Below, in pieces: positions 1 to 63,020 of a DNA stretch of 64,000 bases (its first letter is position 1; every line of letters begins with the position of its first letter). A program made the position numbers and the translations under genes. The stretch covers positions 1,922,001 through 1,986,000 of the forward strand of contig JAALGZ010000007.1 in assembly GCA_015227615.1 (NCBI GenBank), in the 5' to 3' direction. The notes beneath the pieces are model-generated. The model was not told the origin of the DNA. It searched no databases and saw only the letters and a list, made by a program, of their open reading frames with translations. The DNA comes from Labyrinthula sp. Ha (Eukaryota; Sar; Bigyra; Labyrinthulida; Labyrinthulaceae).

Positions 1-3000
1 ATGATCAGTTTGCTGTATATATTACTATGAATCCTGGGTATGCTGGTAGAACTGAGTTGCCCGACAATCTTAAAGCGTTGTTCAGACCGGTTGCAATGAT
101 GGTTCCTGATTATGGCCTTATTGGGGAAATTATGCTGTACTCCTTCGGGTATTCAAAGGCGCGCAAATGCGCAAAAAAAATGGTTGCTACTTTTCGATTA
201 TGTAGCGAGCAGCTAAGTGCTCAGGATCACTATGACTATGGTATGAGAGCAGTTAAGACAACTATCGTAGCTGCAGGAAATCTGAAACGCGCAGAGCCGG
301 ACACAGAAGAAGAAATTCTCTTACTGCGCGCCCTTCAAGATGTTAACTTTCCAAAATTCTTAAGTCATGATTTGCCTCTGTTTCGAGGAATAATCTCAGA
401 CCTTTTCCCGGGGTTAGAAAGACCTTACATAGATTATGGTGAATTAAGTCTTTGCATAAAACTAATCTGTGAGCACAACAACCTCCAATGCGTTGAGTTC
501 TTCATGAAAAAAGTGATCCAGCTCTATGAGACTGTAGTCGTGCGACATGGTTTAATGCTTGTTGGCCCTTCCGGAGGTGGAAAATCAAGAAATGTCGAAA
601 CCTTAGATGAGACCCTGTCTCTTCTAAAGAAGCGAGAATGTTCGGGGTTTGCTTTTGAGAAGGTACAAAGGTATTCTCTCAATCCAAAATCAATCACCAT
701 GGGTCAGCTTTACGGAGAGTTCGACCCTAACACACATGAGTGGCAGGATGGAATATTGGCTTTCATTGTACGAAATTGTGCAAAGCAAGCAAACCCAGAT
801 AGGAAATGGGTCATGTTTGATGGACCAGTAGATGCTATTTGGATAGAAAATATGAATACTGTATTGGATGACAACAAGAAGCTTTGTCTAAATTCAGGGG
901 AAATTATTGGCCTAAGTGACGAGATGACTATGATGTTTGAAGTGGAAGATTTAGCTGTTGCTTCTCCAGCTACTGTTTCTAGGGTGGGCATTGTTTATAT
1001 GGAACCGGCCACTCTTGGCCTAGATGTGGTACAGGAATCATGGTTAAACTCGTTGCCCGAGGTGTTCGAAAGGTATACACTTGAGGGGGAAAAGAAGACA
1101 AGCAAGAATAGTAATATTTCTTGCCTGACTTTCTTGAAGAAGTCCTTAAGACACCTGTTCGATTCATATGTTTCGAATACAATTGCTTTTCTAAGAAGAA
1201 ACTTTAAAGAACCTGTGATAACTTGTGATAATAATTTGAATAGCAGCATGCTCAAGCTACTTGATTGTTTTTTAGCTGAATTTCAGCTTCTAGATGGTGT
1301 AAAGGAGAAGGATCTCGTCCCTAGAATTGTCAAGTTTTGTACAGAAGACTTCCCTAGCTATTTCATATTTTCTCTTATCTGGTCTCTGTGCGCTACTGTT
1401 GGTAGCATAGAAAGAAAAATTTTGGATGGATTTTTGCGTAAACTAATGTTTTCTAATTGCTTTGAACCGTCTCTACCACTCGACGGTTTGGTCTATGAAT
1501 ACTTGTGGGGACATCCCTTTTTAGCAACAAATAAGGATGGCGCTGAAGGAACGTTGTCATCAAAAACCTGGGTAAAGTGGCTAGATAGTACTAAATCATA
1601 TGAGTACGACCCCTCCCTCAACTTCACGGAAACCATAATACCAACTACAGATTCGGTTTGTTACTCGTACTTAGCTAAGACTCTTTACATCAGTAAGAAA
1701 CATTTCATAATGGCTGGGGCTACAGGAACCGGAAAGAGTTCAAATATTAACACACTACTCGGATCAGGGCTGTCTTCTGTGTTTATACCTCTTTGCATCA
1801 ACTTCTCCGCACAAACTAGTGCTAACCAAACACAAGATTTCATTGATTCTAAATTAGAAAAACTAAAGAAGGGAGTATTTGGTCCACAACTTGGAAAGCA
1901 TTTTCTTTGTTTTATAGATGATTTAAATATGCCAAAAAAAGAAGAATATTTTGCCCAACCACCGATAGAGCTGGTTAGGCAACTTTTCAATTATGAGGGT
2001 TGGTATGATCGCAAGCTCTTACAATTCCGGAAGATTATAAACTTTTCTGTCATTGGGGCGCTGGGACATCCAGGAGGCGGGAGAAATACCATTACAATGC
2101 GAATAAAGAGATACTTTAACCTCATCAATTATACAAAGATGGAGCGCGAGTCCATGCAAAAAATATATAATACAATACTTCAAAATTTCCTGAGGGACGG
2201 TCCTATGGATCTTGGGGAATTGACCTCATTAATTGTTACCTCCTCTATTAACATATTCTATAAGATATCCGATGAACTACTTCCCACACCAGAAAAATCA
2301 CACTACATGTACAATATGCGAGATTTGGGAAAAGTTTTTCAAGGTATTCTCCTGTGCTCCAAGAGAGCCTTAACATCGGAAAGTTTGCTGATAAGGATCT
2401 GGTGCCATGAAGTAACTCGGGTTTTTGGTGACAGATTAATTAATGATGATGATAGGAACTGGTTTGACTCACGGATTCTAGAGGAGATTGGCCGCACTAT
2501 GAAGCTTGGAGTGGCGGAACTTGCACAGATACAAGGAGATCAAGCTACCATTATTTATTGTGATTTCCTTAATCCTACAGGTGACAAAGTCTATGAGCAA
2601 GCCTGTAACATAGAGGGCTTGGTGCCACTTGTAGAGGAGTATCTGTTGGAATACAACTCCGAATGTCACCAACCTATGCCCCTAGTTATATTTTTTGATG
2701 CCATTATGTACATCACCAGGATTGACAGGGTGCTAATCCAGCAGTTGGGCAATTGTTTGTTGCTTGGTGTTGGTGGATCTGGACGCCAATCTCTTACCAA
2801 ACTTGCCTCATTCATATGTAATTACCAATGTTTTCAAATAGAGATATCAAAGAACTATGGATTAGTGGAATGGAGGGAAGATGTTAAGAAATGCCTTTTA
2901 TCTGCTGGTATTGAGAATAAACCAGTAACATTTCTCTTTGTAGATTCCCAAATTATTGATGAGCAGATGCTTGAAGACCTGAATGGCGTGCTCAACGCAG

Positions 3001-6000
3001 GCGATATCCCAAATATCTACGCTCCGGATGATCTTGAAAAAATTATGAGCACTTGTCGCATAGACTGCCAGAAGAAAGGTATACAGCCTACAAAAATGAA
3101 TGTGTTCGCCCAGTATTTGTTGAGAGTAAAATCTAACATTCATCTTGTGTTGTGTATGAGTCCAGGAACACCTGTATTTAGAGACAGACTTCGAATGTTC
3201 CCTTCACTTATCAATTGCTGTACCATTGTGTGGTTCTCAGAGTGGCCAGATGAAGCACTCAGATCAGTCGGGCGTGGAGTATTGTTAGAAAGCGGTTTAG
3301 ACTTAGGCAACCAATCGGACAACGTGGTTGAGCTCTTTAAAGTTTTTCATCAGAGCGTAGCAAAGGCAAGTGTAGACTATATGAACAATTTACGTAGATA
3401 TAACTATGTTACACCCACAAGTTTCTTAGAACTTCTAAACATTTTTAAGAGTCTTATGAATAAGAAGAAAAAGGAAATTGATTTATCAGTGTCACGTCTT
3501 CAGGTTGGTTTGGATAAACTGCAGTCCACCAGTAAGATGGTGGCGAGTCTTCAAATTGATTTGACAGAAATGCAACCTCAGTTGGAGAAAACCCAAAAAG
3601 AAGTTGGAGAAATGATAATACAGATAAACAAAGATAAAGAAGCTGCAAAAAAAACAGAAGATAGAGTGAAGGTGGAGGAGGCAGAAGCGGAGAAAAAAGC
3701 GAAGGAAACAAAAGATATCGCTGACGATGCCCAAAGAGATTTAGATGCTGCTCTACCTGCCTTGGATGAAGCTGTAGCCTGCCTTAATAAATTAAAGAAA
3801 GCGGATTTAGATGAGGTAAAATCTCTCAAGACTCCACCTAAAGGTGTAAAGTTGACAATTGAAGCGGCATGTATTATGTTCAACATTAAACCTATTATGG
3901 TAAAGGACCCAAACAAACTTGGGGCCAAACTAAAAGATTATTGGGCAGCTGCACAGAAAACCTTACTCGTGGATGCTAAACAGTTGTTGGCCGATTTAAT
4001 GAGTTTTGACAAGGACAACATCAGCGACAAAACAATATCAGAAATTGAGCCCTATATACAGATGGATGACTTCACTCCTGCTATTATAGAAAAGGCTAGC
4101 AAGGCGTGTACTGCTATCTGTATGTGGGTACGAGCAATGCATACGTATAACGGGGTTGCAAAAAATGTCGAGCCAAAGAAAAAACTACTCGAGGAGGCGC
4201 AAGAGCAGCTAGAAATAACCATGAAATCTCTTGAAAATGCAAGAAATACTCTAGAACAGGTAAAAAACAAAATTAGAACTTTAGAAGAGGACTTTGAGTC
4301 ATCTAATAAGAAAAAGCAGGCCCTGGAAGATGAAGCATATCTGTGCAGTGGAAGATTAGAACGGGCGCATAAACTGATGAGTGGTTTAGGTGGTGAAAAA
4401 GCCAGATGGGAAGAAACAGTTGCACTCTTAAAGAAGCAGATTAATTGTCTTACTGGCGATATTCTGCTATCAAGCGGGAGTACAGCTTATCTTGGGCCCT
4501 TTACTTCGCAGTTTAGACATAGTCTAACTAAAGATTGGTTGAAAAGGCTTGCAGACCTGAATATCCCGCACTCTGCTGATACCAATATTGTTGAAATATT
4601 GGGCGACCCAGTGAAAATTCGCCAATGGAACGTATTTGGATTACCAAATGATGAGCACTCCACCGAGAATGGAATCTTCATGAGTGAAAGTCGACGATGG
4701 CCCTTGCTAGTTGATCCTCAAAACCAAGCAAATAGATTCATTAAATCAATGGGAAAGGATAGACGTCTTTGTGCTAATGGGTTAGAGGTTGTTAAACAGA
4801 GCGACAAAAATTTGCTTAGAATATTGGAAAACGGAATTCGTTTTGGTAGATGGGTGCTTTTGGAAAATGTTGGTGAGAAATTAGATGCTTCCCTTGAACC
4901 TGTTCTGCTTAGGCAAACTTTTGAGCAAGGAAACCAGTTATTGATTAGATTAGGGGAGAGCAACATTCCATATCATTCTGATTTTAATTTTTTTATGACT
5001 ACGAAGCTTCCAAACCCTCATTATCAACCCGAAATTTTTGTAAAGGTAAGTCTCCTGAATTTTAATATAACACCTAAGGGATTAGAAGAGCAGCTCCTTG
5101 GAGTAATTATGCAGAATGAGCTACCTGAGATGGAAGCTAAAAGAAATGAGTTGGTGATAAACAATGCAAGAATGGCTCAGGAGCTGAAGGGTATAGAGGA
5201 TACTATCTTGCATATGCTGAGCTCATCTCAAGGGAACATTTTAGATGATCAGGAACTTATTGACACATTATCAACATCCAAAGTGAAGTCTAACAGTATT
5301 AATGCTAGAGTAGCTGAAGCAAAAATAACACAAAGTGAAATAAACGAAGAAAGAGAAAGATATAGAGCTGTTGCTTTCAGAGGTTCCATATTATTTTTTT
5401 GTATAGCTGATTTGCGAGCGATAGATCCAATGTACGAATATTCGCTCCAATGGTTTACTCAGCTTTTTACTCAAGGAATATTAAACTCGGAGAAGGCTGA
5501 AGATGGGAAGGTTCAACGAAGACTTGAAATCTTGAATGATTTTATTACATACTCCATTTACTCAAGTGTTTGTCGAAGTTTGTTCGAAAGGCATAAGTTG
5601 CTGTTTAGTTTCTCTCTAATCACTCGTATTCTTCAAGGAAGAGATCTCGTGAATCCTGAAGAATGGCGGTTTCTTCTAAGTGGGCAGGTCACAAGAGAGA
5701 AAAATAAAGACCAAAATTTTAATAAACCAAACTGGTGTCCAGATCGAACTTGGAACGAGCTTTGTATTCTTAGCGGCCTTCCTGCTTTTGAAAATATTTT
5801 ATATTTCCTTGGGGAAGGCAGCATGGAAGCAGAATGGGAAGCCTTTTATGGATCTGATACGTGTTATCGGGATCAATGGCCAGCTGATGCGAGGCACGAT
5901 TGGAACTCCTCCTTTTCACCTCTTCAGAAGCTCTGCCTGTTAAGGTGTTTTAGACCTGACAAAATGATCCCTGCTATCCAGTTATTCATTGTAACGGATG

Positions 6001-7892
6001 AAGTGTATGGTCAGCGCTTCATTGAACCTCCGCCTTTTGATATCTCAAACTCATTTGCTGGGTCTAATGTAATTACTCCATTAATATTTGTTCTTACAAG
6101 TGGTACAGATCCTACCAAAGACTTCATGCAATTTGCGGAGCAAATGGGACGAAAGGTAAATGCCATCTCTCTTGGACAAGGACAGGGTCCATTGGCAGAA
6201 AAGCAAGTGGAAGTAGGGTGCGATACTGGATGTTGGGTCCTGCTTCAGAACTGTCATTTGGCATCTAGTTGGATGCCCAAGCTGGAAAAGATAGTGGAAG
6301 AACTTGACCCTACAACTGTACATAGAGACTTTCGCTTATGGTTAACTAGCATGCCTAGTAAAAATTTTCCAGTTTCTGTTCTTCAGCAAAGTGTGAAGTT
6401 GGTAAAAGAACCGCCGAGTGGATTAAGATCCAACTTGAAATCTGCCTATTATAATCTTACTAACGAGGCAATAAATGTTACTAATAAACCTGAAGTATTT
6501 AGAAAGCTAATTTTTGGGCTATGTTTTTTCCATGCATTAATACAAGAGAGGAGAAAATTTGGTCCACTTGGATGGAATATTCCATACGAGTTCAACGAAA
6601 CTGACTTGGAGATAAGCATTCGGCAGTTGGAGCTGTATATTAACAAGTACGAAGAGCCACCTTATGAAGTTGTAAATATTCTAACAAGCTATATCAACTA
6701 TGGGGGAAGAGTAACCGATGCCATAGACAACCGCACAATTGACATTATTCTTAGACAGTTCTATTGTCCAGAAGCTCTTGTACCAGGATATAACTATAGT
6801 GCGTCTGGCATATATCATACGATACAAACTGATCGAGACCTCTCTTATACTCAATATTTAGAATATATTGAAAGTCTGCCTGTAAATGCCGAACCAGAAG
6901 TTTTCGGTATGCATGAAAATGCAAGTATCACTTGTGCACTGGCGGAAACCTATGATCTCTTCGATACCCTCCTTCTGTTGCAGCCCAAATCAGGATCCGG
7001 GGCGGGCCAAAGTATGGAAGAGGTCGTGGATATCCTAGCAACCAAAATTATTACCCAATTGCCCAGGATCTTCAACTTAGAGAGCATAGCAATGGAATAT
7101 CCTGTGAAGTATGAGGAGAGTATGAATACTGTGCTGGTGCAGGAGGCAGGGCGTTACCAAAAACTCTTAATTGAAGTAAAGAAGACACTGTTTGATCTTG
7201 GGAAAGCCCTTAAAGGACTTGTTGTCTTATCTTCTGAGTTGGAGAATATGGCTAACAGCATGTTTGCTCAAAAAGTACCCTCTCTTTGGGAAGCAAAGGC
7301 GTATCCTTCTTTGAAACCGCTTAATGCATGGGTTGACGAGTTCCTGCAAAGATTGAACTTTATTTCAGAATGGGTAAGGCACGGAAATCCTAGCGTATAT
7401 TGGATTTCAGGATTTTTCTTTCCACAAGCTTTTCTTACTGGTCAGATGCAGAATTTTGCTAGAGCAAAACAATACCCTATAGATACAATTTCGTTCGATA
7501 CACAATACATGAAGGCGCCGATGGACAACTTGACCGAAGGTCCATCGTGCGGCTGTTATGTTCATGGCTTATTCTTAGAAGGGGCTAAATGGGACTACGA
7601 GAGGATGGAGCTTTGTAATTCTGATGCTAAGGTATTGTACACCAAATTACCTGTAACTCATTTCCTCCCAGTAAAAGATTTGAAACCCCGGGTCGAGGGA
7701 GTGTATCGTTGCCCCATCTATAAGGTCTTGTCACGACGGGGTACTCTGTCCACTACAGGTCATAGTACAAACTTTGTTATGTGGGTTGACGTTCCTGGGA
7801 CGGGAACTAACATAAAAAACAACAGAGGCCTAAGTGATATAAAGGAGTGGATAAAAGCGGGAGTCGCAGCTTTTTGTTCTTTAAAATATTAA
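1..7892 (+). CDS. Axonemal inner-arm dynein heavy chain, DNAH1-like, C-terminal part (5' end outside window)
   Basis: Motor subunit that drives microtubule sliding in a cilium or flagellum. The frame is open from base 3 and continues upstream: bases 9-50 read FAVYITMNPGYAGR, the conserved end of AAA1, so the first in-frame ATG (base 27) is not the start. About 2,629 residues are visible of a usual 4,000-4,500. In order: AAA2 with P-loop GPSGGGKS (about 563-586), AAA3 with GATGTGKSS (about 1716-1742), AAA4 with GVGGSGRQS (about 2767-2793), coiled-coil stalk (about 3430-4440) flanking the microtubule-binding tip (about 3800-4080), AAA5 (RRWPLLVDPQNQA), AAA6 and the C-terminal cap. The end (SGFFFPQAFLTG, PIDTISFD, CPIYKVLSRRGTLSTTGHST) recalls DNAH1 more than DNAH3/7/12, from memory. 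No intron is needed in 7.9 kb, although other genes here are split by tiny introns. Confidence 0.96.
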   Translation, partial: DQFAVYITMNPGYAGRTELPDNLKALFRPVAMMVPDYGLIGEIMLYSFGYSKARKCAKKMVATFRLCSEQLSAQDHYDYGMRAVKTTIVAAGNLKRAEPDTEEEILLLRALQDVNFPKFLSHDLPLFRGIISDLFPGLERPYIDYGELSLCIKLICEHNNLQCVEFFMKKVIQLYETVVVRHGLMLVGPSGGGKSRNVETLDETLSLLKKRECSGFAFEKVQRYSLNPKSITMGQLYGEFDPNTHEWQDGILAFIVRNCAKQANPDRKWVMFDGPVDAIWIENMNTVLDDNKKLCLNSGEIIGLSDEMTMMFEVEDLAVASPATVSRVGIVYMEPATLGLDVVQESWLNSLPEVFERYTLEGEKKTSKNSNISCLTFLKKSLRHLFDSYVSNTIAFLRRNFKEPVITCDNNLNSSMLKLLDCFLAEFQLLDGVKEKDLVPRIVKFCTEDFPSYFIFSLIWSLCATVGSIERKILDGFLRKLMFSNCFEPSLPLDGLVYEYLWGHPFLATNKDGAEGTLSSKTWVKWLDSTKSYEYDPSLNFTETIIPTTDSVCYSYLAKTLYISKKHFIMAGATGTGKSSNINTLLGSGLSSVFIPLCINFSAQTSANQTQDFIDSKLEKLKKGVFGPQLGKHFLCFIDDLNMPKKEEYFAQPPIELVRQLFNYEGWYDRKLLQFRKIINFSVIGALGHPGGGRNTITMRIKRYFNLINYTKMERESMQKIYNTILQNFLRDGPMDLGELTSLIVTSSINIFYKISDELLPTPEKSHYMYNMRDLGKVFQGILLCSKRALTSESLLIRIWCHEVTRVFGDRLINDDDRNWFDSRILEEIGRTMKLGVAELAQIQGDQATIIYCDFLNPTGDKVYEQACNIEGLVPLVEEYLLEYNSECHQPMPLVIFFDAIMYITRIDRVLIQQLGNCLLLGVGGSGRQSLTKLASFICNYQCFQIEISKNYGLVEWREDVKKCLLSAGIENKPVTFLFVDSQIIDEQMLEDLNGVLNAGDIPNIYAPDDLEKIMSTCRIDCQKKGIQPTKMNVFAQYLLRVKSNIHLVLCMSPGTPVFRDRLRMFPSLINCCTIVWFSEWPDEALRSVGRGVLLESGLDLGNQSDNVVELFKVFHQSVAKASVDYMNNLRRYNYVTPTSFLELLNIFKSLMNKKKKEIDLSVSRLQVGLDKLQSTSKMVASLQIDLTEMQPQLEKTQKEVGEMIIQINKDKEAAKKTEDRVKVEEAEAEKKAKETKDIADDAQRDLDAALPALDEAVACLNKLKKADLDEVKSLKTPPKGVKLTIEAACIMFNIKPIMVKDPNKLGAKLKDYWAAAQKTLLVDAKQLLADLMSFDKDNISDKTISEIEPYIQMDDFTPAIIEKASKACTAICMWVRAMHTYNGVAKNVEPKKKLLEEAQEQLEITMKSLENARNTLEQVKNKIRTLEEDFESSNKKKQALEDEAYLCSGRLERAHKLMSGLGGEKARWEETVALLKKQINCLTGDILLSSGSTAYLGPFTSQFRHSLTKDWLKRLADLNIPHSADTNIVEILGDPVKIRQWNVFGLPNDEHSTENGIFMSESRRWPLLVDPQNQANRFIKSMGKDRRLCANGLEVVKQSDKNLLRILENGIRFGRWVLLENVGEKLDASLEPVLLRQTFEQGNQLLIRLGESNIPYHSDFNFFMTTKLPNPHYQPEIFVKVSLLNFNITPKGLEEQLLGVIMQNELPEMEAKRNELVINNARMAQELKGIEDTILHMLSSSQGNILDDQELIDTLSTSKVKSNSINARVAEAKITQSEINEERERYRAVAFRGSILFFCIADLRAIDPMYEYSLQWFTQLFTQGILNSEKAEDGKVQRRLEILNDFITYSIYSSVCRSLFERHKLLFSFSLITRILQGRDLVNPEEWRFLLSGQVTREKNKDQNFNKPNWCPDRTWNELCILSGLPAFENILYFLGEGSMEAEWEAFYGSDTCYRDQWPADARHDWNSSFSPLQKLCLLRCFRPDKMIPAIQLFIVTDEVYGQRFIEPPPFDISNSFAGSNVITPLIFVLTSGTDPTKDFMQFAEQMGRKVNAISLGQGQGPLAEKQVEVGCDTGCWVLLQNCHLASSWMPKLEKIVEELDPTTVHRDFRLWLTSMPSKNFPVSVLQQSVKLVKEPPSGLRSNLKSAYYNLTNEAINVTNKPEVFRKLIFGLCFFHALIQERRKFGPLGWNIPYEFNETDLEISIRQLELYINKYEEPPYEVVNILTSYINYGGRVTDAIDNRTIDIILRQFYCPEALVPGYNYSASGIYHTIQTDRDLSYTQYLEYIESLPVNAEPEVFGMHENASITCALAETYDLFDTLLLLQPKSGSGAGQSMEEVVDILATKIITQLPRIFNLESIAMEYPVKYEESMNTVLVQEAGRYQKLLIEVKKTLFDLGKALKGLVVLSSELENMANSMFAQKVPSLWEAKAYPSLKPLNAWVDEFLQRLNFISEWVRHGNPSVYWISGFFFPQAFLTGQMQNFARAKQYPIDTISFDTQYMKAPMDNLTEGPSCGCYVHGLFLEGAKWDYERMELCNSDAKVLYTKLPVTHFLPVKDLKPRVEGVYRCPIYKVLSRRGTLSTTGHSTNFVMWVDVPGTGTNIKNNRGLSDIKEWIKAGVAAFCSLKY

Positions 7893-11548: not shown

Positions 11549-11675
11549 TGACGCACTCTCCGGATTCTTTCTTAAACTTTTATAAATCTCAGGTTAAGTT
11601 CTTAACGCTTAGTTTTACATTAGCTCTTCTTATCTCAAACGATTAAACTATGTTACGTCAGGCACGACCGTGCCA
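11549..11675 (-). repeat. Ty3 element 3' LTR (left in window)
   Basis: 127 bp, near-identical to 18725-18851 (two differences). Its right tip carries GGCACGACCGTGCC, a 6-bp inverted repeat with a 2-nt loop, which lies at the start of the LTR in element sense. Preceded by CAAG, the target duplication. Confidence 0.95.
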
Positions 11676-11692
11676 TTGCCCCCCTCCCCATA
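11676..11692 (-). other. Ty3 polypurine tract
   Basis: Read on the minus strand this is a purine-rich run (ATGGGGAGGGGGGCAA) directly abutting the 3' LTR start TGGCAC. This is the expected position and composition for the plus-strand primer of an LTR element. Confidence 0.8.
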
Positions 11693-11693
11693 G

Positions 11694-12540
11694 CTACTCA
11701 ACTGGTCCAAGTCTTTCAGCTACTTCCGGGGTACTGAACGGTAGATCCAACCCAATACTCGTCCAGTTTCTCCTAACATTTGCTCTTCTCGCAAACAGGT
11801 CTAGCTTCCGCGTTCCACCAAACACCCTCTCAATCCGCTGGTATACCTCTTGTGGCTTCTCCGAATTTCTTAACCTCTCCGCTAGTATCACATTAACACC
11901 AAGCGAAAAAATTCGCTGCGATGGCGGCACCTCGCCTTTCCTCTATACCATAAGCACTTCCACCGCACTCATCAGTGTTGACCCCGTGTTGCTTTGTAAA
12001 CGTCATTTCCTTGACATCTTCATCCTGTAGAAATCACCTTCGAATCGAAATCCACATGCTATCAACCACGCCTCGACGACGTTCCTCACTCTGGGCGTAA
12101 CCCAGATAAATAAATATCCATTCTTCAAGATCCTCTCCACCGGTATGGCTTTTATCTCCTCGAACCTCATAGTCGGGTACGGCAATGCAAGTCTTCTTGT
12201 CGGGTCTTTACCTTCAACCCTCCACCGAGGGTCCATGTGTACTACCTCCGGCAATCCCCCATGCAGCTCTATGTACACCTTGATAAACCTCATCCAGTCC
12301 ATTTCTCGAACATCAGTTTTCAAAACCCACGACCTGTGAGGTGGAAACCAGACATCGAACGACCTCTGGCCCGATCGTAGCTTCCACATATCTTTTTCCT
12401 GCCACGTCAACTCGCACTCCTTTCCTTCCCACACTATTCCTCTCAACGATTCCACGTTTCCAGCAGTCCTTCTTTTCTCACAGAGCAGACTATACACAAA
12501 CGTCTCCAGTTGGACCCGTGCAAATCCAAGCATCAGCACT
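11694..12540 (-). other. MT-A70 (METTL3/METTL14/IME4-type) adenine methyltransferase module inside the Ty3 element
   Basis: Two blocks match the MT-A70 fold in the right order. The first (about 12003-12540) has a WVLKTDVREMDW segment, then MDPRWRV in the place of the catalytic DPPW motif (about 12222-12233), then LPYPTM and GYLFIWVTPR, which in the family read LPYGTM and GLLFLWVTGR. The second (about 11694-11930) has ERLRNSEKPQEVYQRIERVF, then GGTRKLDLFARRANVRRNW. This is the classic C-terminal MT-A70 block, of the type KPDEIYGMIERLSPGTRKLELFGR..N..PNW. The family transfers a methyl group from S-adenosylmethionine to N6 of adenine in RNA or DNA. The module lies on the element's coding strand, between the chromodomain and the polypurine tract, within the LTRs, so it belongs to the element. 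It is broken, like the rest. Whether its target was RNA or DNA cannot be told. Confidence 0.88.
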
Positions 12541-13030
12541 TTCTCATCCCCTTTACTCCTTTCCAGTCATATTTCCTGCTCCCTCCTGAGGTTTCTAACT
12601 GGTGACGATAGCCTCGCAAAGAATTACTTGTCACTCTCCGCTCTCCTGAGCCACTTAAGCCATGTCCTCCTCGCTTCTGGTGTATCCTTCCTAGAAAACA
12701 ACGGGATGGCTGTCTTTCGCTGTGCCTTCGTTAATCCAAACCTTCTTTTATTGAACTATCTTCGCACCAGCTTCTCTGCCTGCGGTACCACGTGGCTTCT
12801 TTCCACATAGTAGCACGTTCCCCATCGCTTCCTATTATACGCTGCAACCTCCCTTACATCCAGCACTATCCCATTAAATTCTGAAATCGACTGTTGACCG
12901 GCGAGTTTCTGGGTTCTATTATAAAGCTGCTGCTTTGTTTTCCCTTGCAACAATGCTTCCCTCTGTATCTGGTCATATCATCCAACTCCAAAATTCCAGA
13001 TGCACAGCTTCAAAACTTCATCCTCGATAG
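12541..13030 (-). other. Unassigned Ty3 stretch between chromodomain and MT-A70 module
   Basis: Coding-like in composition on the element's sense strand and possibly the N-terminal part of the methyltransferase-bearing product. A recognisable stretch near 12760-12950 is basic (ISEFNGIVLDVREVAAYNRK), but I do not recognise a domain. Confidence 0.4.
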
Positions 13031-13034
13031 GGAG

Positions 13035-13490
13035 TCACCATCTATCAGCTTTCGGTGCACTTCTCCTTACCCTTGCTAGACAAACCGTGAACTTATTCAA
13101 ATACTTCTTCACTCGAACGCGTTCCCTCTTATCCGCCTTTAGTGTATCCTCCAAAAATAACTCAATCATCTCCGGCAGGTCCTGTGCAATAACGTGGAGG
13201 GGTTCCCATGACATGTCCTCTACCTTGAACCCACGCCATTTAACCAAGATTTCATATACTCCTGCCCTTCTCCGCAGCTTCTCGAACCTTTCTACTTCTA
13301 ATTCACCATAGTCTGACATGAACACGTCCCTAACTGCGCCAGACGGCCTCCAATCAGAACTCTCATAAAACCACAGTCTACTCGCGTGGATCACCGATAT
13401 CTTCCCGTGCATGGACTTCACCCGATATACATTCGGGGACAACGTCTCCACGACCTTATACGGCCCAACCCATCGCAACTTGTACTTCAA
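13035..13490 (-). other. Ty3 integrase C-terminus and chromodomain
   Basis: Contains KYKLRWVGPYKVVETLSPNV, the integrase C-terminal GPF/Y-like segment, followed by a chromodomain (about 13130-13320) with YEILVKWRGFKVEDMSWEPL. The aromatic and WxGF..E.(S/T)WEP pattern is that of chromoviral targeting domains, which in known elements direct integration to modified histone H3. Confidence 0.88.
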
Positions 13491-13505
13491 CCTCTCCGAT
13501 GGCGT

Positions 13506-14696
13506 TCATTTCCGACTAACCATCACCCAATCGCCTGGGATAAACTGCATCACACGGACTGTCCTGCCCTTATTGTACTTCGAGTTCGCGCGATTTCTTG
13601 TTTCCTCCACAAATGAATAAACCTCTAACCACTTCGCCTCTAACTGCTCCGTAAGCTTCTCTAGAGTATCCAAGAACAACCTCACATCTCTCGGCTTCAC
13701 TAGTTCCTCTGACAGCTTTCTAAACGTTGTCCATTCCTCAGGCTCCAGCACCAACTCCCTGTGGCTTCCTTTTCCCATAACCAGCTCGTTTGGCATTAGC
13801 CCAAGATTCCTCTCTGTCAGTCGGTTATTCATGTAGTGGGCTATTGTAGGTGTTAAATCCTCCCGCTCCGTCATCTCCAGCCTCAGTTCCGACACTAAAA
13901 CTCTGACTGCTCGAAGAATGCGAGAATTAGCCACCTCCACACCACCGTTCGTCCATGGTTCATATGAAATCGCATAGTGATGCACGAATCTTAGTGCCTT
14001 CCCAAGTTCCTTCAATAGGTTAGATACAAAGTGACTGCCTAGGTCGGTAAAGACCATGAACTCCTCAATAAGACCCACTGAGAACCTCCATTCCAGAAGG
14101 GCTTTCACCGCGTTTGCACTAATCGGTTTCCTCACCTTCGACAGATGCACTTTTCTGGAAAAAGAGTCCGCTAGCACCAACAGGTACCCATCCTCATTTA
14201 TGTACAGGTAATCCATTAGCAGTATCTCCCGTGGTTTGGTTCCTAAAACGGTGATATCCGTCGGTCTACGAATGAGAGCCGGTTTCCTAAGGCAGTGTAG
14301 ACACTTCTCTGCGATAAGCTTCAGCTTGGCATCTACCACTCCCTCTTTCTCGTAGCAATAATCCCGCACCAGTCCTCTCTTCTGATCCTTCATCGTGGCG
14401 TGTATCGATGCTACGGGGTAATGTATCAGCACCCTATCCATTAACTCCTCGGGCACAAAAACTCTATGCTCCTTATCTCTCAGAAATCCATCCTCGTCCT
14501 CTTTCAGCTCGATAGTGGAACCTGAGTCCGACTTCCACCTTAACTGGGCCTTCTTTATCTCTCCCAGTGTTACCTTCTTCCACGATCCCCTGAACACTGG
14601 CGACAGGAACGAAACCCTCATTTGATCCACCGCCTTCATCACTTCTAGATCCTGTGCAGAGAACCTCGGTGCTCCCCTTGTCTTTGCTCTTTTCAC
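13506..14696 (-). other. Ty3 integrase core
   Basis: Zinc-binding HHCC region (SIHATMKDQ ... CLHC) followed by the DDE core: LLMDYLYI, VFTDLGSHF and NGGVEVANSR carry the three acidic positions in the expected spacing. The product inserts the cDNA into the genome. Fossil, part of the broken element. Confidence 0.9.
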
Positions 14697-14714
14697 CTGG
14701 ACTACATTCTCCTC

Positions 14715-16150
14715 CTAACTAGCTTCTGGGTTCCCCCATCGGCTCAGCATGTCAGCGAACAGGTTCACTTCGCCTGGCAGATGTGAGACTTCAATATCCG
14801 CTTCCTGGAAACGTAGCACCCATCGGTGGAGCCTATCTACATGGCTCTTGTTCGGCATAGCTCCAGGCTTCAGAATAAACGCCAAATTCCTATGGTCAGT
14901 CAGAAACTTCACTGGCCTCGGGTTTCCATACACCAGGAAGTCCAGCTTCGTGATTACCTCCAACATCGGATACAGCTCCTTCTGCGAAATGTGTCAGTTC
15001 TTCTGTGACCGTGTAAACTTTCCCGATAATGTCATGAGCGGGTGATGTTCTTGCTTATCAAAGTCCTTACTCTCGAAGTCTGCTACCGAGCACTGGCTAA
15101 CCACTGCTGCCCAATACTTCTTCGACGCATCTGTGGTGACTACTAGCTCCTTCTCCCTATCATACAACTTAAGGTTCCGCGACATCGCCACCGACACAAT
15201 CTCCAAAAACTTTTTCCAGGCTTCTTTCCGCTTTTGTGTCCATTCCAGCACCTTTTTCTGTTTCTTCATATCACGCATTCTCATGCCCATCTGCGCATCT
15301 TTCGCTAACACTTCTCTCAGCGCTACCAGCTCGGGTATTGTAGGTGCTAACCAAGTTGCAAGATAAATAACCTCTGCCATCTGATAATGAAAATATGGCA
15401 TCTTCGTATCCCTGATCTTCTGGTAGTAGACTGGTGAATACCTCCACTCCCCCGGCTGCATCATTCTTCCGTAGAACTCTGCTTGGCGTGTAAAAAATAC
15501 GCAATTATCTACTCGAAGTCTCACTTTCTTTTCTATTAATTTATCCAGGTACTTCTTCACCATGTCAATGTAGTTTTCCTTCGTTTGTGAATACAACAAG
15601 CGATCATCTATCCACTGTAGAGCTCCACTAGCCGCGGTTTCATATATTCCCTGGGGTTTCAGGATCTCACCCACCATCCTTTCCTGGAACAACATTGGGG
15701 AGTTCACCCAACCCTATGGGGCCCCCTGTATTTCATATATCTCCCCCCAAGGCATCAGCAAGGTAAAATACTGCTTCGCGTTCTCTGTAGCTCTGAGAAA
15801 ATCATATCCACTTTTCATGTCGAAGCATCCAAATATCTGACTCTCCCTACACAGATGAAGTTGGTGATCCAATAGCGGGAGCGTAAGCGCTGTTTTCTGC
15901 GTGATAGAATTCAACATCCTCATATCCATTACCATCCGGTACTTTTCTGGTCCCTTCTTCGGTACCACAAACACCTGCGACGTGTAATTCGCAGATGTGA
16001 CCTTCCTCAGCAGACCTCCCTTAACCGTCGACTTCACCTTCCTTCTCAGCCAATCCTCCCTCAGAGCTCCTAATGGCCTCGTCTTCACTATCAAAGAGTC
16101 AGGCGCAGTCTTCTTCAGTGTGCCATCTATAGGTTCCAGGTTGCTCATAC
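14715..16150 (-). other. Ty3 reverse transcriptase and RNase H
   Basis: RT segments include VKGGLLRKVTSANYTSQVFV, FGCFDMKSGYDFL, TLLMPWGEIYEIQGAP, SPMLFQERMVGEIL and WIDDRLLYS, the last at the catalytic x-x-DD position. RNase H follows (LVVTTDASKKYWAA, then PVKFLTDHRNLAFIL). This group of Ty3 RTs resembles ones I remember from oomycetes, but that is recall, not a search. Fossil sequence. Confidence 0.9.
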
Positions 16151-16964
16151 GTCCCTTCGATCTTGATAAAGCAAAAGCTTGCCATCGTTTCTGTATTACC
16201 TCATACAGCTCATCTCTAAACTTCTTGTCGAAAAAGGTATCTTCCTCCTCACCATAGATCTTCTACCTAATCGTCACTAAAATCTCGTCTTTCTCTCCAG
16301 GAACCGTCTCTCCCTGCTCCAGGCTTTCTAAATCTCCACCCCCCATCTATCTCATCAGGGCTTTCAGATACTGCATACGCTTTCACTCTTAGCGTCTCCT
16401 CCAAGTTATCGCCTTCATACTGCTGTTCCACAGCTTCCACACTTTCAGACGTCCTTTACCGAAGAGAAAGCTCTTCAAAATAGGCCAGCTGGCTATTGAT
16501 ATATCCTTCAATAAAATCAGCATCCAGGCCTCCAGGCTAAATAACTTCAAATTCTCCATCTACCTTAGTATCCTTAAATTTAGCATACAGGATTTCGTCT
16601 CCGCCAAATCCTCTCTCTTTATCTGGATATGGTTCCTCGTATTCATTAGTTTGGAACTTTATCGGCTCACGAGGCGGTAGATTAAGCTCCTCCACTGTTT
16701 CCTTGAACACCTTGTCCATAATCTCTTTCTGATCTTTATAGGGAGCATCTTCTGACTTTATAACAATCTCAGCTTGATTCTCCCACTGGCTTCCCCCAAC
16801 TCCCCCTTTCCTATTACAACCGGCGAGTCAGCATCTGACAAGTGCATGTCACTTACTTCATTTGGACCTTGATCCAGTTTCTTCCCGACACGTCTCGATA
16901 AATTATTGCAGTTTCCACGTCGTTCAGGTTGCTCCTCGACAATAGTAGCAACCTTCGCCTCATC
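16151..16964 (-). other. Ty3 linker between protease and reverse transcriptase
   Basis: Coding-like but with no recognised domain. A segment near 16540-16719 (PPREPIKFQTNEYEEPYPDK) is acidic and proline-rich, like the spacers that precede RT in some Ty3 elements. Confidence 0.4.
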
Positions 16965-18700
16965 CTACGCGCTCCCCGCTGGCGCATACTCATTCCTCAA
17001 CTCCATTGGGAGCCTGCCCATCACCTGCTCCGACAGCACCTGTAGCTTCCTTAAATTTTCGCGCCCAATAAGTAGGTCTTTCCAATCCTCCGACTCAACC
17101 ATATACATCTTGATCGTTCCGAGGTACACCGGTTCGAAATTATCCACAATTACTCTCGCTTCGATATCTCCAACTTCAGTAGCTCTAACTATCGTTCCTT
17201 CCCCCCACTCTACAATAATCGGGGGTTTCAGCTTCCGTGATGTGCCACAAAACTTCTTGTGGAGCTTCAAACTTCCGATCGTCTTTCCCGCTCCGTTATC
17301 TAGCACCCCTTTAACCCTCGACCAGCTGTTATCATAATTCTGCAATTCGATTATATCGGAGTGCGTAAACTTCGCGTTCTGCACCAGTATATGCTCTGCT
17401 TCGCTGTCGGTGACGTTCTGGGAACCCACTATTTGCGTCCCTTGTTTCCTTTGTCTCTTCGGTTTCGGGCAGTCACGGGCCATGTGGGCCTTTTCCCTAC
17501 AATTGAAACAGGTAACTTCCGGATAACTACGAAACTTGTGCTCCAACGAACCACAGCGGCTGCACTTTGGATTTCCCATGTCACTAACTTTCACTTCCGC
17601 TGACATAATACGGATATTTGGGTCCTTCTGACGTGAGCCCCCTTTTCTTGCTCTTCTAGATCTGTTGTGGACATCCTCAACCGCCGCATACTTCTCCAAA
17701 GCTTGTTCGAAGGTTTCTAGATCTCTTGACTCTGGGAACTCCTCCTTATAATCTTCATAGGTCAGGTTAAAATATGCTGGCAGTGCTTGGATCAAAATCC
17801 TAATCATCTGCTCCTGGACTGGACGTTGTGATATCTTGACTTTGCCCACCAGTGCTCTCGCCTCATGCATGAATACTGCTAGTGCCTCCTCGCCCGTAGC
17901 ACACTCAACAGGCCATGAAAGTTTTTCTCGCAGGAAAACCAAAGCCATCTTCCTCCTGCTCTTATCCAGGAGATCAAGTCGACGACCTAGATGTGCTCTA
18001 ACCGCTACTGTGTCCAGGATATCTACTCCCTGAGCCTCCAGTTGATCCTGAATGGAAATATCTAGCCACTACGCTATCTCCAGCGGCGGGTAGGCTATGG
18101 AATCTGCTCTACTCTGTGCTTTGTCGAACCTCGAAAGAAATTGTGCTAACGGGGTTCGGCGCAAACTGCTCAGTTCCTCAAGTTTTGGTGGACGTATCTG
18201 GGGAATAGAAGGACCTCCACGGTTGCTTTGACGCCTAAATTGCGCCGTCTGAGCCGCTACACCTCCCAAAGGACGTGCTGCTGCTGCAGGTGTGGATGTT
18301 TCACCCTCTCTAGGAGACGCCTCCCTTCCTCCTTCCCCGCTTAATTGGGACCTGGTTTCATTCCCCGTTTCTCTCGGCTGGGTAGCTTCTGTAGGTGAGC
18401 CACCTGTCGCGGACTCTGCCGCTCTCGAAGGACGACCTTGCCTTCTTCTCCTATATTCGGCCTGCGAAATTGGGTTCCCACGGTCATCCAAAATCATCCT
18501 ATTCGCACTAGATCCTCCCTCTGAGTCCCCCTCCTCTTCCTTGACCTCCTCCTGCTCTGGACCACTTGCAGGGTTTGTCTGAGGGTCTTGCTCAGCGAGT
18601 TCATCCTCCCGCGCGATATCATCTAAATTGGTTACGGGATTCACCTTTTCTTGATTCGATTCGCTCTGACTCATATTGCTTAACCAAAGACTCAATTATG
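16965..18700 (-). other. Ty3 gag region with zinc knuckle, plus protease
   Basis: The upstream part (about 18070-18695) is acidic and Ser/Pro/Glu-rich and leads into a capsid-like helical stretch (ALAVFMHEARALVGKVKISQ). One CCHC knuckle reads CFNCREKAHMARDC. Downstream, about 17200-17330, a D-x-G-A segment (GVLDNGAGKTI) marks the aspartic protease. Fossil, part of the broken element. Confidence 0.8.
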
Positions 18701-18724
18701 ACTTCTCGCGCTTTGTTTAAACAA

Positions 18725-18851
18725 TGACGCACTCTCCGGATTCTTTCTTAAACTTTTATAAATCTCAAGTTAAGTTCTTAACGCTTAGTTTTACATTAGC
18801 TCTTCTTATCTCAAACGATTAAACTATGTTACATCAGGCACGACCGTGCCA
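18725..18851 (-). repeat. Ty3 element 5' LTR (right in window)
   Basis: 127 bp, two differences from 11549-11675, followed by CAAG. The internal sequence next to it begins with a perfect 12-bp palindrome, TTGTTTAAACAA (about 18713-18724), where a primer-binding site is expected. No complement to a tRNA 3'-CCA end is apparent. Confidence 0.94.
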
Positions 18852-58384: not shown

Positions 58385-58394
58385 CCCTCCCTTA
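58385..58394 (-). other. Copia polypurine tract
   Basis: On the minus strand a short purine run (AAGGGAGGG) abuts the start of the 3' LTR, the expected place for the plus-strand primer. Confidence 0.75.
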
Positions 58395-59965
58395 CTTCGT
58401 AGTAGACGAAGTATTCATATCTTCCAACATCTTGTCATGATGTTTACTAAATAAGCCTTTCGACAATGGCTTTGTAAACAAGTCTGCTGGGTTATCATCT
58501 CCTGTTACATATCTGAGTACAAAATCTCCAGATTTTAATGCATCACGAATAAACCATAGTTTAATGTCCAAGTGTTTAGTTCTTGTATTTCCTACTTCTT
58601 CATTTGCAATGCGAATTGCCGACTGGTTGTCTGTGTAAACTTTAACCGGTAACATCTCAAACTTCATTTCTTTCAACATGTTGAAAATCCATTTTACTTC
58701 TTTGAATCCTAGACACAGTGTCAAATATTCAGCTTCTGTAGTGGACAAGCATACTATGCTTTGTTGCTTGGATTTGTACTGAATAAGAGAATTGTTCAGA
58801 AACACACAAAATCCACAAACTGTTTTGCGCTGTTCTCCATTAGCCCATGAAGCGTCACAAAATAGGTTCAGTTCAAGCTTATCTCCATAAACTAAAGCGG
58901 AGTTGTAGTGAATACCAAAATTCTTTGTTGCTTTCAAATAAGAAATACATCTCTTCGCTTGATTGAACTGAAACTTTGTAGGTTTTACCAATCCACGAGA
59001 TAACACATGAGTAGCATAACAAAGATCTGGTCTTGACATCTGTGCCAAATAGTTCAATGAACCCACAAGGGATCTGTAAAGTCTTGCGTCTTCTAGTTCA
59101 GGAGACATATTTGGTCCAACAGTTGAAGCATCCATCGGAGTTGATCTGGGTTTACTATCTTGCATATCGTAAGTTTTTACCATAGTTTCAATAAACTTCT
59201 TTTGCACCATCTTAAGAGAAGAATCATCTTGTCTAAACTCCAGCCCAATAAATTCAGTTGACACTTCTTTTGCTTTGACTTTATAAATCTGAGAAATCTC
59301 CTCCGTAAATCTTTGTTTAAATGATTTTGTTCCTGTAAAAGTATGTCATCTACATAAATCAGAATGATACCCTTTAAAGTTATTTTGTCTTCAGAGAATT
59401 GAATGAATACACATGGTTCACTTTTCAGTTGCTGCAATTTGTTTTTCAAGTAGCTAGTTAAAGTCTTATTCCAAGTAAGTGGGGCTTCTTTTAAACCATA
59501 AATTGATGAATAACTTTTCCATACGAACTTTTTCTCACGAGTTGAATTAGCATGACCTTTTGGAAGTTCAATAAATACAGGTTTATCCAAACGTCCATAT
59601 AAAAATGCAGTTGACACGTCAAGTTGTCCCACCGGTTCAGGAAATAACCTTGAACGTGTCAGAAATATTCTTAAACTAGTCGTGTTTGCTACCGGGGAAA
59701 ACCAGTTTCTAGTTTTTGGTTGTAGATCTCCTCGCGCTACCACTCTAACCTTGGGAATTTTCTTTTGTAAAATATTATCCGATTTCCACAGGAACAACTC
59801 TAATATGGGAATAACTTTCATCTCTTTCGATCTTTTTACAACCTCCATCTGCCCAACCGAAATGAGAGAAGAAACTTCTTTGTTATAAGCCTGGTACCAT
59901 TCTCGTTTATCACTTCGTTTAGCTATTTGAAAATATGTTTTTTGGAGGGAGTAAACGTCTTGCAA
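58392..59965 (-). other. Copia reverse transcriptase and RNase H
   Basis: RT (about 59250-59960) shows QLDVSTAFLYGRLDKPVFIE, YGLKEAPLTWNKTL and the catalytic IYVDDILL. RNase H (about 58430-58870) shows LFCDASWANGEQRKTVCGFC, STTEAEYLTL, VYTDNQSAIRIA and RTKHLDIKLWFIRDAL, the copia signature ending in DLFTKPL. Fossil, in a young copy. Confidence 0.93.
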
Positions 59966-60566
59966 TTGTAATTTTATAAAAATAAACTGGATTCTTCACT
60001 TTGAGTCTAAACAACAGTCTTGCAGGTGGTTTTCTTACTCTTGAGGAAGTTACTATATTATCTTTATTTACTTCAGCATTCAACACACCAGGTTCGTTAC
60101 CATCCTTTCCTTGTGTAATATTTTCATTGTTTTCATCGTCTGAAACTGTGTAATTCCCTCCCTCAAACGCTGAACCGCTCGGTGAGATAGAAACAGAAAA
60201 AGAAGCATCTGTTGTTAAAGAAATGTCTTCTTGTTCTTTCGTTTTGGATCTTTTCCTTTTATTAAGTATATTCTTAGGACGAAGAGCTTCTCGTTTGATA
60301 CTTACTTTTAAATCAGGGACCTCAGGTAGTAAAGCTTGTAAGCGTTTCTCCGCAGTTTATACAAATCCTTGCTCATCTAATTTGATATCTCTTGCTTTTA
60401 CAATCTTTTGAGATGAGGGTAGCCATAGAAGAAACTGCTTTGAGTCTTTAGAAAAGCCTATAAAAATTCCACTTGAGTTTTTATCCGTAAGTTTCTTGTT
60501 TCCTTTTAACTTTGCAAAGTATCCACGAGATCCAAATATTCTAAAACGTCGTAGATCTTCTTCTCT

Positions 60567-63020
60567 CTATTGAAAATATTCAAGTGGAGACTTGTTCTCA
60601 CCAGCTTTAGGTATCGCGTTCCAAATCCGAACTGCGTAAAGTAATGCATAACTCCAAAGCTTTCCCGGCACTGTCTCTGCAAGAAGTAAGTTCCTACTGG
60701 TTTGCTTCAAAGTTTGAACAAGTCTTTCTACTCTGCCATTTTCTGATTGGTGATAATCTGCACTAAACTGCTGAATTATTCCTCTCTCATCTAAAAACCG
60801 AGTTGTAGCTGTATTTTTAAACTCACTTCCTTGGTCAGACATTACACACTTAACAGTTTTATGTTGTTTTGTCAATCGTTCAATCAGTGAGAAAAGTTTT
60901 GCTTTTACAACCTCTTTCGACTTAACAGGAAAAACCCAACTGAATCTTGAAAACGAGTCGATAACTATAAATGCGTAACGGTTTTTGTGTATGTCTCTTG
61001 GTGTAAAAGGACCGATAGTGTCGCAACATAGTTTTTCTCCACAAGTAACTGCTACAAAACTTGAAGATCCAGTCTTGGAGATCTTTTTCTTATGTGGATC
61101 TGTTCTAATTTGCGATTCACCACATACAGTGCGTGCATTTGTATCAAACTTGTAACCTAACCTACTTAAAGTGTTTCCTGATACATGTCCAAATCTGTAA
61201 TGTTGAAGCAAACTTTCAGCACTTTTTGCATAAAGAACATTTACTGGGATCCTTTTGTCATTAGGTTTATGAGGTCTGCAGTGAAGATAAAAACAATTTC
61301 CATCAGCTTTTACATTGAGTACCTTTACCTTCTTGTATCTAATCTCACATAGATTTTGTAAAAACGTTGCTGTAAATCCTTGTGTGCTAAGTTGTCCAAT
61401 TGACAAGATAGTTCCAGAAACGTTTGGGCAATATAAAACTTCAGGAAACTCCATAACTGTATTATTTAAAAGGGTCACTTTCAGGTTTCCATACACGGAA
61501 TCATATACCGTTTTCTCAAATGCATTTGTGACTGCTATAGTAGTTCCTTGTTTTGTATTTTGTAGTAAAGAATTTACTCCAGTTATGTGTTTTCTAGCAC
61601 CAGAGTCCAAAAGTATCCTTAAACACGTAGTTGAAAGATAACATGAACAAACATCTTCACTTGTAGTTGCAGAGTGACAAATGATGTTTGACGTTTCATT
61701 ATTCTCGGTCTTTGAAGATATTGAAGAACATCTTAAAGCTCCTAATGAAACTTCCTCGACATCAGAAGTATCTTCTTTACTTTCTACTTCACTTTCTTCA
61801 TCGCTTTCCTCTTCTTCTTCATATTCATCATCTTCCTCTTTAGCTAAAACTGCTGCAAGAACAGCTAAAGATACTTTCTTTTTCGATTTACATTCTCTTG
61901 CTAAATGATTCTTTGCTCCGCATAAGCCGCATCGTCTTTCTGTAGTAGGACACTCTTGAGCTTTATGACCGAAAACACTACAAACGCTGCATCTCATTTC
62001 CTTTGTTGCCAGTAAGTTCACTTTTGTACTCTTAGTTCTCTTGGACTTCTTTGCCGGAGACTTTAACTGTCTTCTTTCAATTTCATTAATGTTTAGTTTC
62101 GAGAGGTTTGAAAACCTTTTGGAACTTGAGTTTGTAGTTCTTGTCACATTGTTGAATGAGAAATCTCTGTCAGTGATGTCTTGAAAATACCTAAAAAGCT
62201 GATCAATATCAGTGTTAGGACGTATTTGATTTTTGTAAACTCTGTATTGCATCGGTATAGCTCTAAGAAATATTCTTTTTATTGATGGATCGTCTCTTTT
62301 ACCTCCAATACTGGTAAATTTAGTCAATAGCTTCTTAAACTTTTTGATATATTCATCCATTTCTTTACACTTAAGACTTTCCATTTTTGATAAGAGAGAG
62401 AAACTTTCTAATTCTAAATCTTCAACATAAAGTTCTTTAATCTTCTTATAAGCTTCCATCACTCCAGAGGACGTATCAACCAGATGCTTGTCATCATTTG
62501 TCAGACTACCTCGTAGTATTGACATCACCTTCGAACAGTTTTGGTGATGATCTATTCTAGCATTATCATATTTTTCTGTAGTGGTGTGAAGTGTTATGAG
62601 ACCTTTTGTTTCATCATCCTCTTGTCGTTTAGTAACTACTGTAAGAGAACATGACAATGAAACCTTGAGTAACTCACTAGGAATATCTGACGATGCTCTA
62701 TCATAAAGCCACACTCTTTCCATTTCCACAAGAATATCAAGAGTATGTACAGGTAAACCTTGTAAAAGTCGAAAAACCGAGTCATCTTTTGAGACGTTCT
62801 GCAGTTTTTCCTGTATTTTGGTGTTTTTCTCCTCATCAATTGAGTCTGCACCTATGCGATTCAATAATTGGTTTGGAGGTGAAGTCTCATAAAACATCAA
62901 GTAGGCCAAACTTTTCCCATTCAAATAAGTTAAAATAGCTCTTTCCCAGTCACGGAAATTTACCTTTCCTCGTAACACTGGTATAGTCCATTTTAGTTTA
63001 TCTTTGCTGTCTTTACCCAT
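60567..63020 (-). other. Copia gag, protease and integrase
   Basis: A long open frame opens with a UBN2-type gag (DWERAILTYLNGKSLAYL). Two CCHC knuckles (CSVCSVFGHKAQEC and CGLCGAKNHLAREC, about 61890-62010) follow, then an acidic stretch, a protease with LLDSGARKHITG, a pre-integrase segment (LLQHYRFGHVSGNTLSRL) and an integrase core (IGPFTPRDIHKNRYAFIVID, SDQGSEFKN, ENGRVERLVQTLK). Confidence 0.93.

Follow-up and report, generated by a model that had tools for sequence, protein, structure and literature searches.

The window analysed here, a stretch of 64,000 nucleotides from Labyrinthula sp. Ha, contains a 7.3-kb chromodomain Ty3/gypsy-type element on the minus strand (positions 11549-18851) that is full-length but decayed. 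Its coding part is split over several frames. The features, in the order of the coding strand, are the following:

18725..18851, minus strand: 5' LTR, a direct repeat of 127 bp (98% identity with the 3' LTR) with TG...CA ends; CAAG on the outer sides of both LTRs is taken as a short target-site duplication
18069..18695, minus strand: first open piece of Gag, an ORF of 208 aa that closely follows the 5' LTR, assigned from its position only
16965..17948, minus strand: Gag zinc-knuckle and retropepsin-like stretch, a 327-aa ORF in which CxxC/CCHC-like knuckles and an LDNGAG-like motif were recognised by eye
15714..16148, minus strand: reverse transcriptase, first part (RVT_1, E 1.2e-05, below the cut-off)
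14994..15707, minus strand: reverse transcriptase, second part, and start of RNase H (RT_RNaseH_2, E 3.8e-06; RVT_1, E 0.0014; below the cut-off)
14715..14966, minus strand: end of RNase H (RT_RNaseH, E 5.3e-04, below the cut-off)
13506..14696, minus strand: integrase (rve, E 7.1e-07; 29.9 bits, below the cut-off of 32.6)
13035..13490, minus strand: integrase C-terminal domain (Integrase_p58_C, E 9.2e-09) and chromodomain (Chromo, E 2.9e-07), both over the cut-off
12828..13025, minus strand: p1-like Myb domain with one in-frame stop (p1 query, E 3.6e-09, 38% identity; dN/dS against the related copy L016, 0.06)
11697..12539, minus strand: AMT1-type MT-A70 module with DPRW for DPPW and two in-frame stops (PF05063, E 2.5e-05; METTL3 query, E 4e-17; dN/dS against L016, 0.10)
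11549..11675, minus strand: 3' LTR, 18 nt past the stop codon of the MT-A70 frame

In this broken copy, the reverse transcriptase (RT), RNase H and integrase-core pieces match below the Pfam cut-offs, and a genome scan that read through one stop recovered RNase H over its cut-off at 14802-15161 (E 5.8e-16). The chromodomain reached 30.7 bits (cut-off 25.1) and the integrase C-terminal domain 35.7 bits (cut-off 27).

MT-A70 is the last coding module of the element. A reading of the sequence alone had proposed an MT-A70 methyltransferase inside a chromodomain Ty3-type element, and this was confirmed: DPRW, LPYPTM, LFIWVTPR, NSEKPQEVYQRIERVF and GTRKLDLFARRANVRRNW all lie in the same minus-strand frame, and the Pfam model matched its first open piece, at about 12003-12539, with 24.7 bits against a curated cut-off of 23.9. 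The METTL3 query, with stops read through, aligned to 11751-12194. That reading described only half of the module; the MT-A70 part was there, but the p1-like Myb domain upstream of it was missed.

With its stops, DPRW, and PTRR where the element copies have PxRG, the window copy is dead. The DPRW noted in the sequence-only reading is present, but it is a change of this copy: L016, a relative with 80.1% identity across 7313 nt, has DPPW. In L016 the LTRs are identical, and the second ORF, of 1756 codons, runs through MT-A70 without a stop.

Elsewhere in the window, ORFs at 58392-63020 (minus strand) resemble a copia-type gag-pol, as read from the ORFs only. Positions 27-7892, which adjoin the element, are dynein heavy chain-like by eye; this ORF is uninterrupted over 2621 codons, so host genes may be intron-poor.

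Recurrence of the element in the genome

The search of the 50.8-Mb genome with PF05063 gave 354 candidates; the best 150 were scored and all 150 exceeded the cut-off, 31 of them in frames that run for 1700 or more codons without a stop. All genome scan lists hold the best 150 of 275-436 candidates. Pooling three of these lists by hand gave at least 180 distinct MT-A70 sites, decayed pieces and tandem copies counted. Among the matches listed, a Ty3-type RNase H, chromodomain or p1-like match lay at the expected upstream distance in 158 of 180, and the remaining 22 included the host AMT1 gene and the element L023. The module therefore recurs at the same position in other copies, and a one-off insertion is ruled out by this recurrence downstream of Ty3-type domains.

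The same arrangement was seen from the other domains. Among the matches listed, an MT-A70 lay 0.5-3 kb downstream of 105 of the 148 chromodomain sites (upstream control, 0 of 148), directly downstream of 114 of 150 p1 sites, and 2-6 kb downstream of 77 of 150 RNase H sites (upstream, 2; opposite strand, 1). The other 73 RNase H sites in this list seemingly had no MT-A70. Two usable stretches from such sites were fetched, a third (L043) being left out as it was cut by a contig end: L042 carried MT-A70 and L041 was without it. Since L042 carries MT-A70 despite seeming to lack it, the listed site counts are lower bounds. L041 (C103) represents a second Ty3 lineage of this genome; inspection by eye and the listed matches showed no chromodomain, p1 or MT-A70 in it.

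Twenty long copies were fetched for their long frames with MT-A70, whose presence in them is therefore by choice. With L014 set aside, 19 polyproteins were scanned, and each of RVT_1, RT_RNaseH, rve and Chromo was found in 19 of 19, with E values up to 0.5. The domains are fused in open frames, and the p1-AMT1 module lies downstream of integrase and chromodomain in all 19 aligned polyproteins. A profile of these 19 had Ty3 Gag-Pol as the best PDB match of its RT part (7.3e-71). LTR pairs, 93-100% identical, were present in 16 of 21 loci; none was found in the fetched stretches of L011, L012, L017, L023 and L042, which may be cut.

Some further traits of the lineage were noted. The usual catalytic box of reverse transcriptases is Y/F-x-D-D (YxDD). 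Here the box is W-x-D-D, with W invariant in the 19 aligned polyproteins (L009-L028); the window reads WIDD at 14994-15707 and the other Ty3 lineage, L041, reads YADD. A retropepsin-like stretch lies before RT in L018 and in the window (by eye); in L009 (residues 1966-2062), L012, L015 and L028 it comes long after RT, with p1 before it and AMT1 behind it, and in L009 the Pfam gag-asp_proteas match was below the cut-off (E 0.046). Single in-frame stops separate long ORFs with no change of frame in L016 (2670, TAG), L028 (2510, TGA), L023 (2055, TAG) and L042 (1016 and 5966, both TAG; one of them precedes MT-A70), and look as if they were read through.

Outside this genome, 5.8 billion proteins were searched by a method that is weak for diverged elements. 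Among 351 candidates with a suitable length, the only find was P0001, a EukProt gene model of 2328 aa, 98% identical to L009 and with the same Pfam domains as the elements. P0001 presumably comes from the same host, since its name follows the style of P0014, a protein with the same sequence as the host AMT1. With a C-terminal profile, 10 proteins were found among 7994 scored: P0002 (named in the style of P0001), eight MT-A70 proteins presumed to be bacterial, and one METTL4. A scan of viral contigs with one element copy as query, likewise weak for diverged elements, gave no match.

Affinities of the p1-like and MT-A70 parts

The profile of 19 polyproteins matched the MTA1 chain in the PDB with 223 bits (3.9e-65), compared with 145 bits for METTL3 and 86 for METTL14, and directly upstream of this match it aligned to p1 (5.7e-21). 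We take these chains to be those of Tetrahymena, following PMC9174199 and PMC9852454. Subfamily HMMs were built from 9 AMT1, 7 METTL3-type (six of them vertebrate) and 4 bacterial-type proteins. In the HMMs and trees, proteins were labelled AMT1 when akin to the AMT1 of Tetrahymena and to the host gene; the sources often say METTL3 or mRNA m6A methyltransferase. All 20 copies scored higher with the AMT1 HMM than with the METTL3 HMM, the difference being 29.5-101.4 bits, and part of this margin is bias, since five control MT-A70 proteins likewise favoured the AMT1 HMM, by 15-22 bits. METTL3 was the closer by score in none of the 20 copies.

All 20 copies have PxRG after the catalytic motif, a feature present in AMT1 and absent from METTL3. 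The motif itself reads DPPW in 12 long-frame copies, DPPY in four, DPAW in two, and DLPF and DAPW in one each. None of the 19 aligned copies deviates at the D of the motif or at the PxRG, KP..Y and F.R..N.R..W positions. The spacing between the DVR position and the motif is 27 residues in AMT1, and L016 and the window share this length; the 15 remaining element rows have 18-22, and METTL3 has 18. By score, the nearest MT-A70 subfamily is AMT1/MTA1, a DNA writer, and not METTL3 or METTL14. The captured METTL3/14/4-type gene of the sequence-only reading needs correction in this respect; its idea of a module inherited within the element lineage stood.

The invariant positions bear on the possibility that the module is a chromatin tether or integration guide, with the p1 and AMT1 folds docking on host 6mA-writer complexes or on target DNA and catalysis secondary. 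Its place after integrase and chromodomain would suit such a role, as would the four of 20 copies that keep long open frames with altered catalytic motifs, but the invariance is what would be expected of a working SAM pocket, and we consider a tether unlikely.

A Myb-like domain lies between the chromodomain and MT-A70; of the solved structures, p1 of the MTA1 complex matches it best. The Myb region alone (16 sequences) matched p1 with 79 bits, followed by SNAPC4 with 53, and 77 residues were aligned, including the p1 extension. p1 also came first with a single Myb-region sequence (2.8e-13; next, 1.5e-4) and with seven sequences from the L016, L018-L021, L025 and L027 lineages (3.2e-16; next, 9.7e-4). 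The full profile aligned p1 residues 10-171 in one chain, and the sub-profile A5 ended near residue 96; the C-terminal HTH of p1, which binds the MTA1 arm, spans 152-183. Some element lineages have a flank such as RRNGVIIN, close to RKNGCLIN in the host p1 and RKNNCIIN in the ciliate one. The Pfam Myb model detects the p1-like domain in only 5 of 19 polyproteins.

The host has an AMT1 gene of its own (C91), 54% identical to the ciliate sequence, and two separate p1-like genes (C100 and C1). Its AMT1 groups with those of the thraustochytrids Mucochytrium and Hondaea with support of 89/93, and of 98/92 when three unnamed proteins are included. A METTL3 query of the host genome found nothing closer than this gene (43% identity) in a scan that ignores introns and is therefore weak, and the host may lack METTL3.

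MT-A70 trees were calculated with 41 and 33 rows, METTL14, MTA9 and broad METTL4 sets being left out, and none of the tested alternatives was rejected. Grouping the elements with AMT1 gave p values of 0.42 and 0.23, and grouping them with METTL3 gave 0.28 and 0.36; with bacterial-type rows the value was 0.33. The element-only MT-A70 clade that the sequence-only reading had named as support for a captured module was neither supported nor rejected (elements as one clade, p 0.22). In the best trees AMT1 and METTL3 stood together without the elements, with weak support (46/74 and 68/57), and in one tree the starred branch (98/94) set six element rows apart from the rest at a point where long branches meet. 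METTL3 as the source of the module is disfavoured by the scores, the AMT1 HMM being the best in all copies, and not by these trees.

Taken together, the module is very probably a p1 plus AMT1-type pair; the case for AMT1 lies in the scores, in PxRG and above all in the adjacent p1. We stop short of near certainty because the AMT1-like spacing before the motif occurs in only one aligned element lineage. A p1-like domain of the same complex, fused beside MT-A70, points to DNA rather than RNA as the substrate, so that among the targets named by the sequence-only reading (RNA, cDNA or chromatin) RNA is the less favoured. An enzyme that methylates the element RNA (m6A), for stability, packaging or evasion of RNA sensing, would agree with METTL3 as the second-best kind of structural match, with the METTL3 kinship that the trees permit, and with the METTL3-like length before the motif in most element rows. 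This is nevertheless quite improbable, given the scores and PxRG, the METTL3 query that met no host gene closer than AMT1, and a fused partner that resembles p1; passages of PMC12695648 report that p1 and p2 co-occur exclusively with AMT1.

Co-inheritance and selection

For 16 copies (three near-copies were left out), one tree was built from the polymerase and another from the p1-AMT1 module. The two had 10 of 13 splits in common, compared with at most 3 in 2000 shuffles of the labels. The discordant splits had support of 48/41, 50/17 and 70/50 in the polymerase tree, and of 61/42, 91/89 and 85/86 in the module tree. A tree of MT-A70 only agreed with the polymerase in 9 of 13 splits and lacked the polymerase split, supported at 100/100, that places L022. 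The module is co-inherited with the polymerase, and the agreement is consistent with one capture that preceded the divergence of the element lineages.

The MT-A70 part is under purifying selection. Its dN/dS was 0.10 between the window copy and L016 (dS 1.1), 0.07 between L034 and L035 (dS 1.7), 0.07 between L009 and L010 (dS 0.21), and 0.20 between L018 and L025 (dS 2.4, near saturation). The near-copies gave 0.19 (L025 and L026), 0.27 (L009 and L013) and 0.21 (L001 and L002), values that are unsure as dS was below 0.1 in each; in all other pairs synonymous sites were saturated. For the window copy with L016 and for L009 with L010, RT and integrase had ratios of 0.03-0.08, and p1 had 0.06 and 0.08, respectively. 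One old capture maintained by selection would fit these results best.

The low ratios also bear on two other explanations. Host genes inserted by chance, with no function for the element, might have been suspected from the stops and DPRW of the window copy, but the recurrent position, the dN/dS of 0.07-0.20 in four diverged pairs and the co-inheritance with the polymerase make a neutral passenger hardly credible. Alternatively, the element p1-AMT1 could compete for the host MTA9 and p2 and so alter the marking of host genes or rival elements. The AMT1 and p1-like genes of the host are compatible with this, and the altered motifs of some copies would suit a competitor; DPP[WY] in 16 of 20 copies and the low dN/dS suggest, however, that catalysis has been selected in most of the lineages sampled, and such subversion of the host 6mA seems improbable.

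Proposed function and known systems

Our preferred explanation, to which we give a probability of roughly 0.58, is that a Ty3/gypsy-type lineage captured p1 and AMT1, kept them fused, and would use them to methylate its own DNA and so pass as active. A chromodomain-bearing lineage would once have captured the genes for the DNA-binding (p1) and catalytic (AMT1/MTA1) subunits of a 6mA writer complex. The pair would then have been retained as a fused C-terminal module, in the order gag - RT - RNase H - integrase - chromodomain - p1 - AMT1; the protease would precede RT or, in certain lineages, separate p1 from AMT1. Probably together with the host MTA9 and p2, p1-AMT1 would methylate adenines in ApT, either in the double-stranded cDNA of the element or in the freshly integrated copy. 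A new insert marked in this way would be taken for an active gene and withstand silencing, since 6mA accompanies transcriptionally permissive chromatin in AMT1-bearing eukaryotes. The narrower proposal that this two-part writer places ApT 6mA on its own copies, which then pass as active genes, is tentative, and we put it at slightly less than even odds.

Passages of PMC9174199 report no or weak activity of MTA1c on RNA and single-stranded DNA, and in those of PMC9174199 and PMC9852454 the complex methylates ApT in DNA, with p1, p2 and MTA9 needed for robust activity in ciliates. According to passages of PMC12695648, 6mA tracks transcription and accompanies transcriptionally permissive chromatin, and transposable elements are not enriched in 6mA in the species studied. 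Several observations count against the preferred explanation: the dead window copy; the altered motifs of four of the 20 long-frame copies (DPAW twice, DLPF and DAPW); the shorter spacing before the motif in most element rows; the MT-A70 trees, in which the elements do not join AMT1; MTA9 and p2, which were not noticed in the element; and the absence of 6mA enrichment on transposable elements in the species studied.

If the proposal holds, some 180 sites, many of them decayed, in a 51-Mb genome may reshape the 6mA landscape of the host, which raises the question of how much of the 6mA mapped in such genomes comes from elements. An element with its own writer would also offer a way to test whether 6mA causes the permissive state, the host having the cellular enzyme too.

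Retroelements with captured cytosine and Dam-like adenine DNA methyltransferases are already known. DIRS elements use a tyrosine recombinase. The DIRS-type combination of a Dam-like domain without rve integrase is not found here; the present elements have both an rve integrase and MT-A70. DIRS elements, as cited in passages of PMC5890265 and PMC6338049, likewise encode an adenine methyltransferase, but a Dam-like one.

The DNMT retrotransposons of Symbiodinium and charophytes (de Mendoza et al. 2018, PMC5890265) also carry a host-derived DNA methyltransferase in their coding region, and for them passages of that work report de novo activity and propose self-methylation of the retrotranscribed DNA. 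They encode cytosine C5 enzymes and are LINE- and DIRS-like (PMC5890265) or Ty3/gypsy (PMC6338049), whereas the enzyme here is an MT-A70; the passages of both sources describe neither an MT-A70 nor a fused DNA-binding subunit, and both occur here. The retrotransposon passages of the cited literature, and of PMC13297926, PMC11258239, PMC11441545 and PMC11065753, name no MT-A70, and the PMC open-access literature yielded no report of one in an LTR element. In N4CMT of bdelloid rotifers (passages of PMC8885841) a chromodomain is likewise joined to an amino-methyltransferase, but that is a host gene of bacterial origin that writes 4mC, while here the methyltransferase is part of a retrotransposon.

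The closest relatives of the parts described here are in the ciliate MTA1 complex, namely the Myb/homeobox-like domain of p1 and the catalytic domain of MTA1 (passages of PMC9174199 and PMC9852454). In ciliates MTA1/AMT1, MTA9, p1 and p2 are four separate proteins, whereas here relatives of two of them are fused to a retrotransposon polyprotein. What is new, as judged from the PMC open-access literature, is that relatives of two subunits of one 6mA writer, the catalytic and the DNA-binding one, are carried together by a retrotransposon and under selection.
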